A stretch of DNA of 64,000 bases. Origin: Acidobacteriota bacterium. GTDB taxonomy: Bacteria; Acidobacteriota; Terriglobia; Bryobacterales; Bryobacteraceae. Location: positions 1 through 64,000 of the forward strand of contig JANXSF010000042.1 of NCBI GenBank assembly GCA_025352795.1, given 5' to 3'. Positions within the stretch are counted from its first letter, which is position 1. Every line of letters starts with the position of its first letter. The notes under the pieces are model-generated. The model worked only from the letters and a program-made list of their open reading frames with translations. It was not told the DNA's origin and searched no databases. This document shows positions 15,573 to 22,355 of this stretch, one piece after another. The translations under genes and the position numbers were made by a program.

Positions 15573-16872
15573 CGCCAAATCGTGGAAAGTCGGTCTGGCC
15601 TCGGTGGACATCTCGCCTACCGAACCGATTTATCTCAACGGCTATGGGAATCGCACCCACCCATCCACTGGTGTGAAGCAGCAACTTTGGGCCAAGGCCA
15701 TTGCTTTGGAAGACAACAAGAGGCAGCGAGTGGTGATTGTCACAACCGATCTGCTGGGCATTCCCGGTGCCGTTTCCGACGTCATTGCTGCGCGCGTTGC
15801 CAAGCAGTACGGCCTCAAGCGAAGCCAGTTACTGCTGAACTCCTCGCACACGCACGGAGCCCCCATGGTGGAAGGCAATCTGGGCACCATGTTCGCACTC
15901 ACCCCCGCCGAGCGGCTGGCCATCCACAACTACACCGAACGCCTGAAAGATCAAATCGTGAATGCAGTGGACCGCGCGTTGGCCGATCTGAAACCTGCCC
16001 AACTGGCCCTGGGCCATGGCAAAGCCACTTTCGCCATCAATCGCAGAGTTCTTTCGAAAGACGGCACCTATATCATTGGCACCAACCCCAATGGCCCAGT
16101 GGATCACGACGTCCCGGTGCTGCGCATTTCCTCACCCGATGGCAAACTGCTCGCCGCATTGTTCGGCTACACCTGCCACAACACCACCATGGGCGGCGAT
16201 ATTTACGAGGTCCATGGCGACTACGCCGGTTATGCACAACTGGCATTTGAAAAGGAGCATCCCGGAGTGCAGGCCATGTTCTATCTGCTGTGTGGAGGGG
16301 ATCAAAACCCCAGCCCACGCGGCAAATTTGAGCTGGCTGAAAAGTATGGCAATGAGTTGGCTGCGGCAGCATCCGCAGTGATCACTGGCAAAATGCAACC
16401 GTTAACGGGACCACTGCGCACGGCCTTCCGAATGACTGACCTCAACTTAAAACTGCATTCCAGAGAGCAGTTTGAAGAGGAGTTAAAAGATAAAATTCCG
16501 GCCAAGGTACGTCGTGCGGAATCTATGTTATCGCTCTACAATCAGCAGCGTCCCATGCGCAGCGTGCCGTATCCGGTGCAAGCCATCCGCTTCGGCAAGC
16601 AGTGGACTCTAGTGGCCCTGGGCGGTGAAGTTGTGATTGATTACCAACTGCGCATCAAAAAAGAATTTCCCGGCGAGGATACCACTGTTGCCGGCTATTC
16701 CAACGATGTGATGTGTTACATTCCATCCCTTCGCGTTCTGAAAGAGGGCGGCTACGAAGCAGATTCCAGCATGATTTACTACGGCAAGCCAGGGCCATTT
16801 GCCGAATCTGTTGAAGAACAATTGATGGCCACGGTGGATAAGGTGATGCGGGATGTTGGTCGAAATAAATGA
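15526..16872 (+). CDS. Neutral/alkaline ceramidase N-terminal domain hydrolase
   Basis: The 448-residue secreted protein (signal peptide ending ASAKS near residue 19) has the opening typical of the neutral/alkaline non-lysosomal ceramidase N-terminal family. The landmarks are VGLASVDISPTEPIYLNGYG, VIVTTDLLGIP and the metal-binding SSHTHGAP, followed by FGYTCHNTTMGG and CGGDQNPSP. Family members hydrolyse amide bonds with zinc. The short form lacking the C-terminal domain is common in Acidobacteriota and Planctomycetes and may act on other amides. It overlaps the membrane protein gene by 47 bases, and its stop overlaps the pxpA start as ATGA. Confidence 0.8.
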   Translation: MKFALLLLLLLPTLASAKSWKVGLASVDISPTEPIYLNGYGNRTHPSTGVKQQLWAKAIALEDNKRQRVVIVTTDLLGIPGAVSDVIAARVAKQYGLKRSQLLLNSSHTHGAPMVEGNLGTMFALTPAERLAIHNYTERLKDQIVNAVDRALADLKPAQLALGHGKATFAINRRVLSKDGTYIIGTNPNGPVDHDVPVLRISSPDGKLLAALFGYTCHNTTMGGDIYEVHGDYAGYAQLAFEKEHPGVQAMFYLLCGGDQNPSPRGKFELAEKYGNELAAAASAVITGKMQPLTGPLRTAFRMTDLNLKLHSREQFEEELKDKIPAKVRRAESMLSLYNQQRPMRSVPYPVQAIRFGKQWTLVALGGEVVIDYQLRIKKEFPGEDTTVAGYSNDVMCYIPSLRVLKEGGYEADSSMIYYGKPGPFAESVEEQLMATVDKVMRDVGRNK

Positions 16873-17543
16873 TGGACATTAATTGCGATATCGGCGAATT
16901 GGTGGAACTGATTGAAGACGGATCGCAGGAAGCGCTAATGCCGTTTCTGACGTCGGTAAACATTGCTTGCGGCGGTCATGCGGGGGGTAGCCGGATGATG
17001 CAGATCTCGGTAGACCAGGCAATGCAGTATGGGTTGAAGATTGGCGCGCATCCAGGATATGCAGACGCTGCAAACTTCGGACGGCTGGAACTGGACATGC
17101 CCTTCCCTGCCGTGGAGCAGATCGTCTACGAACAGATTTGCGCCTTGGCCGCAGTGACGAAACATATTTCCCACGTGAAGCCGCACGGTGCTTTGTATAA
17201 CCAGGCGGTGAAGAATCAGGGATTGGCGCAAGCCATTGCCCGTGGGACAGCGCGCTTCAGTCGGGAAGTTACTCTGGTTGGGCTGGCCGGTTCACAGATG
17301 CTGGTTGTCTTTCAAGAGGAAGGATTTAGAGTGGCCGCTGAGGCCTTTGCCGATAGGCGTTATGAAATAGATGGTACTTTGCGATCAAGAAAATTTGCTG
17401 ATGCTTTGATTCTGGATCCTGAAGAGGCAGCACGCCAGGCGGTGCGGATCTCACAGTCGAAAATGGCCGATACGATTTGTATTCACAGCGATACTCCGGA
17501 TGCCTTGGCGATTGCGACTGCTGTCGCCAAGGCACTGCGGTGA
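16869..17543 (+). CDS. pxpA: 5-oxoprolinase subunit A (LamB/YcsF family)
   Basis: PxpA works with PxpB and PxpC to hydrolyse 5-oxoproline (pyroglutamate) to glutamate at the cost of ATP. The product shows the LamB/YcsF pattern: MDINCDIGE at the N-terminus, NIACGGHAGG, GAHPGYAD and HVKPHGALYNQ, with a closing DTICIHSDTP. At 224 residues it is somewhat shorter than the usual 245-255. The usual partners pxpB and pxpC are not in the window. The start overlaps the upstream stop by four bases, implying coupled translation with the ceramidase-like gene. Confidence 0.9.
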   Translation: MMDINCDIGELVELIEDGSQEALMPFLTSVNIACGGHAGGSRMMQISVDQAMQYGLKIGAHPGYADAANFGRLELDMPFPAVEQIVYEQICALAAVTKHISHVKPHGALYNQAVKNQGLAQAIARGTARFSREVTLVGLAGSQMLVVFQEEGFRVAAEAFADRRYEIDGTLRSRKFADALILDPEEAARQAVRISQSKMADTICIHSDTPDALAIATAVAKALR

Positions 17544-18999: not shown

Positions 19000-19863
19000 T
19001 TAAACCTGGTCGCTAGCGTGATACGAGCTTCGCACCAGTGGCCCAGATTCCACATGAGCAAAGCCCATCGCTTTCCCTTGCACCTTATATTCCGCAAACT
19101 CTTCGGGATCGACGTAGCGCAGAATCGGGAGATGCTTTGGTGATGGCCGTAAGTATTGCCCCAAGGTCAAAATGCTGACTCCATGCGCGCGTAAATCGCC
19201 CATCGTCTGCAGCACTTCCTCTTTGGTTTCGCCCAACCCCAGCATCAACCCGGATTTCGTTGGAATGGTGGCGTCCAGGCTCTTGGCATAGGCCAACATT
19301 TCCAGTGACCGTTCATAGCGTGCGCCCAGGCGGACCGTCCGATACAGTCGGGGCACCGTCTCAGTATTGTGATTCAACACATCGGGCCGAGCTGCCATGA
19401 CGGTTCGCATGGCCGGGTGCGACCCTTGAAAATCGGGCACCAGCACTTCCACTTTGCAACCGGGAACGCGCTCACGAATTTGCTGAATGACCATGGCGAA
19501 AATTTCCGCCCCGCCATCTTTTTGATCATCGCGGTTCACACTGGTCACCACGGCATAGCGCAGTCCCAGTGCCTCAACTGCTTCCGCAACACGGCGCGGC
19601 TCGTCGAAATCCATGGCCAGCGGAACACCTTTTTGCACCGCGCAAAATCCGCAACGACGGGTGCACACGTTCCCTAAAATCATGAATGTAGCCGTGCGTT
19701 GATTCCAGCATTCCCCCACGTTTGGGCAGGCAGCACTTTCGCACACCGTGTGCAGGCGCAACCGCTGCACCAAGCCCTTTAATTCACGATAATTGTCGCC
19801 GACCGGGGCTGGAGCCTTTAGCCATTTTGGCCGCTCCTGCTTTGATTCAATGGTAACCAGCAC
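19000..19863 (-). CDS. lipA: Lipoyl synthase
   Basis: LipA is a radical-SAM enzyme that inserts two sulfur atoms into octanoyl groups on lipoyl-carrier proteins. Both iron-sulfur cluster sites are intact. The auxiliary cluster ligands are Cys41, Cys46 and Cys52 (CESAACPNVGEC). The radical-SAM motif CTRRCGFC gives Cys67, Cys71 and Cys74. The C-terminus carries the conserved RSSYHA. At 287 residues the length is normal. The start is GTG at 19863, six bases after the formiminotransferase stop, so lipA is probably the third gene of that operon. No lipB is seen in the window. Confidence 0.95.
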   Translation of the reverse strand: MLVTIESKQERPKWLKAPAPVGDNYRELKGLVQRLRLHTVCESAACPNVGECWNQRTATFMILGNVCTRRCGFCAVQKGVPLAMDFDEPRRVAEAVEALGLRYAVVTSVNRDDQKDGGAEIFAMVIQQIRERVPGCKVEVLVPDFQGSHPAMRTVMAARPDVLNHNTETVPRLYRTVRLGARYERSLEMLAYAKSLDATIPTKSGLMLGLGETKEEVLQTMGDLRAHGVSILTLGQYLRPSPKHLPILRYVDPEEFAEYKVQGKAMGFAHVESGPLVRSSYHASDQV

Positions 19864-19869
19864 TTGTCT

Positions 19870-21231
19870 TTATTGTAGCGCCCAGATGCGCGCCGTCAGT
19901 TCCTTGCGAGTCTCTTCCGATTGGATTCGGCTAAGGTTCGGCTGAATGCAGGTGATGGCCGCTTGAATCGCCGACCGACATAAATACAGAGAAGATTCCA
20001 CATCGGTCTGAAACTCCGGATGCGCTTTTGCCCGCAGATCCTCCATGCGCTTCACCAGTTGGTGGGCCCGGGTGGCCACTTCAATGGGTAACCGAGTGGC
20101 TGCCACCCAATCCACTTCTTCGCCGGTTTCCAGTGCCCGGTCAAAAACTACTGCGTCGCGAACTGCCGCTTCCGCCAGCCACACTTTATCGGCAGTAATT
20201 TCGTCATGGTTCAACCCTGAAATGCGGGCCATCTTTTCACCCACCGCCGCTGCCATGGCCGCTGTAGCTGCAGCGGCACGGCCAGGGCTCAGGTCAGTCA
20301 AAAAATCGGCTAGCGGATCAGCCGGAAACTCTTCCAGTAACCTGTTTTCTAAAACCATTCCTTCACGGAAATGTTCCACCTTCATTAAGCGGGCGCCTGC
20401 TTGATCCAACGCCTGCCGCGGAACCAGCCCGATCAATTCCGTGGATTTCACTTTCACCCCAAGCTTTGTCGCTTCCCGTTCCACGGCATGAAACAGTTCC
20501 CCCAACGACGTCCGTTCGTAGTCAGTAAGATTCACCGAAACCTGCGCCAACTTGCGCGATTCCAGATATAACCCCAATGCCCTTACGGAAGCCAGGCCCC
20601 CAGACGATTCCCGAATGGCCGCCGCAATTAGCTTCGCCACTTTCACATCTTTGGTTTCCAAATGAAAGTTATAGGCAATCAGAAATTTACGCGCCCCAAC
20701 TGCCACCGCCCCGGCTGTGGGATGCAAGCTGGCATTGCCAAAATCTGGCTTCTTTTCAGGATTGGTTTTCACTTCTTCGCGCAGCCCTTCAAATGCTCCT
20801 TTGCGAAGATTGGGCAAAGCCGCCCGTTCCGGATTCTTCGCCGCCGCACCGTACAGGTAAACGGGAATTTGATAACGTTTCCAAATTTGTTCACCAGCCT
20901 GTTCAGCAAGTAGCGCGCATTCATCCAAGGTGATGTTTTCAACGGGAATGAAAGGCACAACATCGGCTGCACCAATTCGAGGATGAACTCCCTTGTGGTG
21001 GTTTAAGTCAATCAGCAAAGAAGCTTCGCCCACGGCCTTGATGGCTGCTTCAACCACCGCCTTGGGTTCGCCTGCAAAGGTCAGCACGGAGCGGTTATGG
21101 TCCTGATCCATTTCCTTATCTAACAGCCGCACCCCCTTCACACTGAGGGCTGCCGCTGCAATGCGGTCCACCACATCCGCGCGACGACCTTCTGAAAAAT
21201 TCGGAACACATTCCACTATGCGCCTAGCCAT
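19870..21231 (-). CDS. ftcD: Formiminotransferase-cyclodeaminase fusion with altered second domain
   Basis: The N-terminal formiminotransferase (about 1-290) is well conserved: RIVECVPNFSEGRR, the active-site region HKGVHPRIGA with His83, VYLYGAAAK, GARKFLIAYN and LIGLVPRQAL. It transfers a formimino group from formiminoglutamate to tetrahydrofolate. The C-terminal part (about 305-453) aligns with the cyclodeaminase domain (DPLADFLTDL, then Ala-rich helices), but the usual PGGGS loop reads only PGRAA. The fusion is shorter than the animal enzyme (541 residues). It overlaps the HutI-like gene by 16 bases and lipA follows closely. Cyclodeaminase activity is doubtful. Confidence 0.88.
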   Translation of the reverse strand: MARRIVECVPNFSEGRRADVVDRIAAAALSVKGVRLLDKEMDQDHNRSVLTFAGEPKAVVEAAIKAVGEASLLIDLNHHKGVHPRIGAADVVPFIPVENITLDECALLAEQAGEQIWKRYQIPVYLYGAAAKNPERAALPNLRKGAFEGLREEVKTNPEKKPDFGNASLHPTAGAVAVGARKFLIAYNFHLETKDVKVAKLIAAAIRESSGGLASVRALGLYLESRKLAQVSVNLTDYERTSLGELFHAVEREATKLGVKVKSTELIGLVPRQALDQAGARLMKVEHFREGMVLENRLLEEFPADPLADFLTDLSPGRAAAATAAMAAAVGEKMARISGLNHDEITADKVWLAEAAVRDAVVFDRALETGEEVDWVAATRLPIEVATRAHQLVKRMEDLRAKAHPEFQTDVESSLYLCRSAIQAAITCIQPNLSRIQSEETRKELTARIWALQ

Positions 21232-22355
21232 TGGGGCTCCAGTTGTTGAAACAGAATCTCGCCATGTAAGATCACCTTTGAAACCAAGTTGATTCCCAAA
21301 TGATATGGGATTTCACGGTAGTCTGGGACATCCAAAATTAGAAGGTCGGCCCGCTTGCCAGGTTCCAGAGATCCGGTGACTTCTTGAATCCCCATGGCAT
21401 GGGCCGCATTAATGGTGGTTGCAGTGATGGCTTCTTCAATAAAAAGCCCCATTTGTGCGCAGGCCAGGGAGACGACGAGTTGCATGCTGGCCGCACCTCC
21501 CAGCCCACAATTCGCTCCAGTTGCCAAGGCCAGGGCTACGCCCGCATCAACCATTTCCCGCCATTGTTTGCGGGAACGATCGTGCCGCAGGCTTTCGAGG
21601 GGCATACCCAAAAGTACCCAGCTTTGGTTGGCCGCCCAATCTATTTCTTCAACAGTGGCGTCACCTTCCCAACAAACTTGCTGCACCGGCAAATTGCGAC
21701 AACTGCTCATTGCGCTGGTCCTGATCTTCATCAGGCAGCCAAGGCCCGCAGCGTGTTCCATCCAACTGCGGGTTTCCTCTTTATTGAACTCCGTGGCAGT
21801 GGATGGAATTTCTATAAATTGGAATAGCTCTTTCTTCAGCAGTTTGGGCAATTGCGCATCGTAGACTTTTTCTGGAACATAGGTAGAAATCAGATTGGGA
21901 TTGGATAGGCTTAGCTGACGATTTGCCTGAAGCTGCCGAAATTCTCCGGCATAATCGGCCATCGGACCTGCCTGGGATTCCATTGCCAGCGTTCCACAAG
22001 CGGTAACTTGCGAAATTTTTCGACGCGACACTTCCAGCGACTTTTTAGCTACCGAACTCTTTTTCCAAAGGGGTGGGTTGCTGGGAAGCAACCGGCAATC
22101 GGAATCAATGAAACCGGGCATGACCACTTTGCCCGTTGCATCAATAACGCGCACATCTCGTGTTTGGGCCAGATTCGCTAGCCGACGGGTAGGGCCGACG
22201 GATTGAATGGTGCCCTTGGAAATCAACACGGCGCCATCTTCAATAATTCCGAGATCGGAAAGTTTGGCACCACGGCGGGGTCCTGCAGGGGAGCTTGCTG
22301 TGTCACGCAAAGTTAGCAACTGGCGCGCTCCCTTAACCAAAAGTGGGTGGGACAT
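21216..22355 (-). CDS. Imidazolonepropionase-like protein lacking all metal ligands
   Basis: HutI opens the imidazolone ring in histidine degradation using one metal ion. This 379-residue protein keeps the HutI scaffold: VVMPGFID, LISTYVPE, ATTINAAHAMG, GSLEPGKRADLLI and YREIPYHLGIN. The metal-ligand motifs are replaced. The usual HTH after PGFVD reads DCR (86-88), KIHAD reads KIRTS (210-214), and ATDFNPG reads ATGANCG (278-284). The His of the DHL region is also missing. The reading frame is intact and it overlaps ftcD by 16 bases. It looks like a catalytically dead homologue under continued translation, or one with a new role. Confidence 0.85.
   Translation of the reverse strand: MSHPLLVKGARQLLTLRDTASSPAGPRRGAKLSDLGIIEDGAVLISKGTIQSVGPTRRLANLAQTRDVRVIDATGKVVMPGFIDSDCRLLPSNPPLWKKSSVAKKSLEVSRRKISQVTACGTLAMESQAGPMADYAGEFRQLQANRQLSLSNPNLISTYVPEKVYDAQLPKLLKKELFQFIEIPSTATEFNKEETRSWMEHAAGLGCLMKIRTSAMSSCRNLPVQQVCWEGDATVEEIDWAANQSWVLLGMPLESLRHDRSRKQWREMVDAGVALALATGANCGLGGAASMQLVVSLACAQMGLFIEEAITATTINAAHAMGIQEVTGSLEPGKRADLLILDVPDYREIPYHLGINLVSKVILHGEILFQQLEPQWLGA

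Follow-up and report, generated by a model that had tools for sequence, protein, structure and literature searches.

The closest described relative of the protein analysed here is imidazolonepropionase (HutI; family TIGR01224, structures 2bb0 and 2g3f), with which it has in common the whole predicted fold (28% identity over 360 residues), the chain ends and the hutI–ftcD gene order, but from which it differs in lacking the four metal ligands and most pocket residues, in scoring below the family cut-off, and in belonging to a genome in which our searches found neither hutU nor hutH (see below). Dihydroorotase is a member of the amidohydrolase superfamily. In Pseudomonas aeruginosa, an inactive dihydroorotase (pDHO) is required for ATCase activity (PMC7053772). 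It is thus a catalytically inactive chain of this superfamily linked to a transferase, as a dead HutI would be to FtcD; pDHO differs in deriving from dihydroorotase, in having ATCase as its partner and in forming a proven complex, whereas a complex of a HutI-like protein with FtcD is postulated here. Formiminotransferases of COG3643 can replace 5-formyltetrahydrofolate cycloligase (5-FCL), as indicated by comparative and complementation work (PMC3223725), and FtcD is likewise kept in the present bacteria where 5-FCL is missing; the excerpted text of that source mentions no HutI-derived companion, in which respect the present locus differs. We found no prior description of a degenerate HutI-like pseudoenzyme in the open-licence papers searched, a scope outside which most subscription papers fall.

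The window (the whole stretch of DNA analysed, 64,000 nucleotides) carries a cluster with the following features:

21216..22355, minus strand: gene for a HutI-like protein of 379 aa, read as a pseudoenzyme (ORF, TIGR01224 match, 2bb0 alignment, AlphaFold2 model)
21216..21231, minus strand: 16 nt common to the end of the HutI-like gene and the beginning of ftcD (ORF coordinates; such an overlap recurs in relatives)
20332..21231, minus strand: FtcD formiminotransferase domain, intact by family score (TIGR02024, 352.8 bits)
19870..20331, minus strand: degraded cyclodeaminase domain of FtcD, GGGS loop absent (Pfam FTCD_C and loop inspection)
19000..19863, minus strand: gene for lipoyl synthase (lipA), which comes after ftcD in the cluster (gene neighbourhood)

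The first-pass annotation had described the HutI-like gene as intact and placed in an operon with ftcD, and we found the ORF to be open throughout from its ATG start, overlapping ftcD and followed beyond it by lipA. Its best NCBIfam family was TIGR01224 (hutI), at 141.2 bits and thus below the cut-off of 298.15, and its closest solved relative by sequence was Bacillus subtilis HutI (2bb0, E 2.5e-28). An AlphaFold2 model built from 40 sequences (mean pLDDT 91.1, pTM 0.92) superposed on HutI 2g3f with Z 46.5 and an rmsd of 2.1 Å across 360 residues. Since the top five structure matches were all HutI entries and Z dropped to 35.7 at the first non-HutI row, the HutI fold is kept as far as a predicted model can say, in line with the original description of a well-kept fold. 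In the neighbouring FtcD, residues 4–300 matched TIGR02024 well above its cut-off of 221.25, and the cyclodeaminase part matched Pfam FTCD_C at 42.9 bits (cut-off 24.5) over the last 73 positions only, with no GGGS loop, so that the loop had rightly been called degraded. A plus-strand ORF at 16869–17543, which seems to resemble LamB/YcsF (5-oxoprolinase subunit A), lies just past the oxidoreductase-like ORF that comes after the cluster. In the window genome (G000, 96.6% complete), neither hutU nor hutH was found at E 1e-20, and a second, intact hutI was rejected as there was no match at E 1e-15. These searches had been suggested at the outset, and their outcome, together with the degraded cyclodeaminase, agrees with the shift away from histidine use proposed then.

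The HutI ligands are H80, H82, H249 and D324 (B. subtilis numbering), and all four are present in all 37 HutI-like ORFs of our sample with hutU in the same stretch. The window protein keeps none of them in the alignments to 2bb0 and to the family. Its altered positions, together with an arginine pair considered further below, map as follows:

22182..22187, minus strand: R57-R58, near-invariant in degenerate HutI-like proteins (alignment rows)
22092..22100, minus strand: D86-C87-R88, replacing the metal-binding HxH of H80 and H82 (2bb0 and family alignment)
21720..21722, minus strand: R212, replacing metal ligand H249 (2bb0 and family alignment)
21669..21671, minus strand: W229, replacing active-site H272 (family alignment)
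21516..21518, minus strand: G280, replacing catalytic Asp/ligand D324 (family alignment)

Within the HxH motif, H80 corresponds to D86 and H82 to R88. The three motif regions, reported from the letters as DCR, KIRTS and ATGANCG, read PGFIDSDCRL, KIRTSA and ATGANCG in the ORF translation. Elsewhere in the pocket, Y152 is replaced by P131 and a deletion has removed the segment carrying H185, while N326 is retained as N282. Neither alignment places a histidine of the window protein at any ligand position, and substitution by other histidines, which had been named as grounds for abandoning the idea of a pseudoenzyme, was thereby rejected.

We examined the spread of these losses in 140 regions, mostly of the window's GTDB family with a few others, picked by match score and not at random. 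From these, 136 HutI-like ORFs were tabulated, 37 with hutU, that is, with a hutU ORF inside the same fetched stretch (not a census, as several further hutU-linked matches were skipped), and 99 without; four of the latter, none longer than 330 aa, were set aside as fragments or split genes (G004, G010, G053), leaving 95 from 54 genera. At least one ligand was missing in 89 of these 95, the number kept being zero in 16, one in 20, two in 15, three in 38 and four in six. Five of the six with four ligands had lost other pocket residues, and the sixth (L065 of G028) is a nearly intact HutI of a second type, with H185 already gone and no hutU in its genome, which may mark the beginning of decay. 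Those relatives in which ligands and pocket residues are all retained have hutU alongside. The ligand losses recur across relatives, as the first-pass annotation had asked to be checked, and are therefore beyond chance. Twelve examined genomes had both a hutU-linked four-ligand copy and a degenerate one. Across 237 genomes of the family, hutU was present in 89, and an alignment of degenerate HutI matched 196 at E 1e-30, a count that includes active copies and a threshold that misses some degenerate ones (e.g. G008). Two HutI-like genes beside ftcD were split in two ORFs (L086 of G053 and L044 of G010) and are likely true pseudogenes or assembly errors. A subgroup of 28 rows from 12 genera (L032, L057, L070, L081, L182, L209 and others) lies apart from ftcD, keeps HxH, H249 and H272 with mostly N at D324 and C at Y152, and is often divergent to what is presumably a pseudouridine synthase-like (rsuA-like) gene; its genomes usually also have hutU, and it may have a separate function.

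The whole cluster hutU-hutI-ftcD-lipA was found in, for example, G012, G013, G027 and G029, and is probably ancestral. In a tree of 132 rows, made by a quick method without bootstrap, most degenerate copies fell in one group of 85 with no hutU-linked row (SH-aLRT 94), separate ligand losses were placed with active relatives (including G044/G049, G197 and G171), and the tree called for no fewer than 10 changes of ligand state. When the association of ligand loss with the hutU neighbourhood was examined by a sign test along the tree, six independent pairs on supported branches were obtained, three to four as expected and none against (median p 0.125), which is not significant and indicates direction only.

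We then asked with codon models how these copies evolve, a check also proposed with the original annotation. For the window gene paired with the orthologue from its own genus (56% identity), omega was 0.185, with 2dlnL 127 against omega = 1. In 16 sets of degenerate copies, which cover 15 genera and include the detached subgroup, values were 0.040–0.214 and omega = 1 was rejected in each (2dlnL 55–1822). Degenerate copies are therefore not pseudogenes. Wide pairs are near synonymous saturation, which makes single omega values rough but not the rejection of omega = 1; two-row sets were run with one row repeated, genera g14, g19, g28 and g49 were left out, only the whole-length omega counts for set g34b (23 codons in its middle part), and can_g27 has no regional values. 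The lowest value came from the seven species of genus g5, six of which have M or L instead of H82 and all of which have G instead of D324. For comparison, hutU-linked HutI gave 0.029–0.094 (five sets) and FtcD 0.013–0.118 (six sets, with one pair, g1, reaching the length limit). Relative to rpoB, the median distance ratio was 10.2 for degenerate HutI versus 5.4 for hutU-linked HutI, that is, about twice as fast, and for FtcD 5.9 beside degenerate copies versus 2.9 beside hutU-linked ones.

To locate the constraint, we compared alignment columns, with one row per genus, between hutU-linked HutI (17 genera) and degenerate ftcD-linked copies with at most two ligands (30 genera). Twenty-one columns at least 95% constant in the former dropped below 50% in the latter, including H80, H82, Y152, H185, H249, H272 and N326, the last being retained in the window protein. 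D324 is not among them because glycine, found there in 23 of the 30 degenerate genera, passes the half mark. Another 45 columns were constant in both groups, with 16 in residues 1–84, 20 in 298–365 and nine between, so that 36 lie at the ends. Shared constraint lies mainly in the chain ends, which according to the model pair as a composite domain, and in the final helices of the barrel. Moreover, R57 was present in all 47 degenerate rows and R58 in all but one of them; among the family's 22 hutU-linked rows, the figures were 11 and 17. Common ancestry may explain part of the shared conservation, R57 and R58 included.

Several explanations other than a selected pseudoenzyme have to be weighed against these data. 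The window genome is a draft of 140 contigs, which might make one suspect a sequencing, frameshift or assembly artefact, but the same-genus orthologue (55–56% identity) has the same losses, and strain KBS 96, the record of which carries no MAG label, has a homologue that lacks all four ligands; these relatives rule out an artefact, to which we attach practically no likelihood. Scarcely more credible is the view that the protein still works as an imidazolonepropionase by way of unusual ligands. Although fold and family match are those of HutI, all four ligands and most pocket residues are replaced, and hutU and hutH, whose products supply the substrate, were not found in the genome. A decaying relic, kept only by translational coupling to ftcD through the overlapping genes, could account for the stop/start overlap in 36 of 60 degenerate pairs, for an evolution faster than that of active HutI and for the few short or split copies; coupling, however, requires an open frame and not particular amino acids, whereas each of the 16 sets has an omega far below 1, copies detached from ftcD persist under the same constraint, and 24 of the 60 pairs have no overlap. 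Decay or coupling alone is accordingly disfavoured by omega and by the detached copies, and we consider it improbable.

The most serious of these alternatives, although we judge it unlikely, is that the protein is still an enzyme or a ligand-binding protein, independent of FtcD, with a metal-free or rebuilt pocket. It would be in keeping with genus g5, where barrel and ends are equally constrained (omega 0.032), with glycine for D324 as the one recurring pocket change, and with the detached subgroup, whose residue pattern is coherent. In the window type, however, no residue reaches half of the genera in the 21 lost columns, most known pocket residues among them, and between genera constraint lies mainly at the chain ends. 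We therefore read the window gene as, with high confidence, a selected pseudoenzyme of HutI origin. As this soil bacterium and dozens of related genera conserve the protein under strong selection without its metal site, often joined to ftcD, it has very likely been put to a use different from the old catalysis.

The adjacent FtcD has changed in parallel. For its counts, eight of 100 ORFs without the N-terminal motif were dropped and FtcDs cut at a region end (3/60 and 2/26) were excluded from whole-gene counts. Beside a HutI-like gene without hutU, 52 of 57 whole FtcDs were single-domain proteins of less than 370 aa, which therefore have no room for a cyclodeaminase, and five were longer, including that of the window; with hutU, 23 of 24 were long and one was single-domain. 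The GGGS loop was found in 2 of 57 versus 22 of 24, respectively. As the model for cyclodeaminase profile scores was built on long FtcDs of hutU genomes, these loop and length counts are the fairer test. FtcD itself was present in 220 of 237 family genomes (146 of 148 good genomes), whereas 5-FCL exceeded the cut-off in only one of the 237, and in none of 61 genomes of a wider set as against 11 of 14 control genomes; the window genome has FtcD and no match to 5-FCL (PF01812). With FtcD near-universal and 5-FCL nearly absent, FtcD has therefore probably been redeployed to 5-formyltetrahydrofolate recycling, for which the cyclodeaminase would no longer be needed. The window genome also encodes an N-formylglutamate amidohydrolase (PF05013; G000:C79:4228-4845), present too in its genus mate and rare elsewhere in the family sample, which could remove the formylated product that FtcD makes. 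A fixed tie to this deformylase was rejected, given PF05013 in 23 of 61 genomes, G000 and G001 included, but in 6 of 37 of the window's family, with no clear link.

The first-pass annotation had suggested that the dead enzyme took on a new role, perhaps as a partner of the formiminotransferase. The new role has gained from a dead site under selection and from losses common to relatives, but for the partnership itself the evidence is divided. In its favour are the adjacency of the two genes and the change in FtcD that accompanies the degenerate copies. As in a pDHO-type activator, the gene is joined to that of a transferase in the window and in the 36 overlapping pairs, but not in the detached copies. 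With hutU, an overlap occurs no less often (17 of 22), and it may therefore be inherited. In partial Mantel tests, which are lenient, distances of the dead HutI and FtcD covaried once rpoB was controlled for (r 0.33, p 0.01, n = 29 genera); HutI with rpoB given FtcD was near zero, and FtcD with rpoB given HutI gave r 0.41. This rpoB control replaced LipA, with which HutI and FtcD gave r 0.53 (p 0.0005, n = 25), the new figure being weaker but better grounded. Active HutI showed such covariation too (r 0.52, p 0.0125, n = 13), and the covariation may reflect only common time since loss of the hut pathway. No ORF matched both the HutI and the FtcD models, that is, there were no fusions. At six loci (e.g. 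in G024) FtcD had no HutI-like gene in the stretch, and genomes of g24, g53, g55 and g59 have FtcD but no match to the degenerate-HutI alignment at E 1e-30, a threshold that some true copies fail. A HutI-like partner thus seems not to be generally needed for FtcD. Overall, a physical or regulatory partnership between the dead HutI and FtcD has, in our estimate, roughly an even chance.

The scheme that we propose builds on what is directly supported, namely the fold (by the model), the loss of the site, selection, the link with hutU and cyclodeaminase loss, and the gene overlap. In the order of events that we infer, the ancestor would have been the HutI of a hutU-hutI-ftcD-lipA operon, and loss of hutU, or a takeover by a second hut cluster, would have released the metal site and substrate pocket while the protein fold stayed under selection, above all at the chain ends that would form the composite domain. 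In parallel, FtcD would have shed its cyclodeaminase and been kept for 5-formyltetrahydrofolate recycling by formyl transfer to glutamate, because almost all these bacteria are without 5-FCL. The dead HutI would then, most likely, bind FtcD non-catalytically and stabilize or regulate it. Taken whole, a dead HutI that is probably a non-catalytic partner of a redeployed FtcD is our best explanation, held at slightly under even confidence. More speculative, and in our view rather doubtful, is its extension to family-wide folate damage repair by a two-part formyltransferase with a dead hydrolase, bound via the RR-motif face of the composite domain, in which the pseudo-HutI would have become a scaffold or gate while FtcD was losing the cyclodeaminase, and in which site death and reuse would have occurred more than once, in a series from four ligands to none. 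If this is true, the birth of a pseudoenzyme could be traced step by step along the ligand series.

With dozens of genera keeping between zero and four ligands, and a candidate partner changing alongside, the question of what selection keeps a fold after its chemistry is lost becomes testable, for which active hutU-linked copies in the same genome (the 12 examined cases) and at least one strain record not labelled as a MAG are resources. For the bacteria themselves, a HutI annotation in Bryobacterales is often not evidence of histidine use, and for the family as a whole the data point to a role of FtcD in folate repair.
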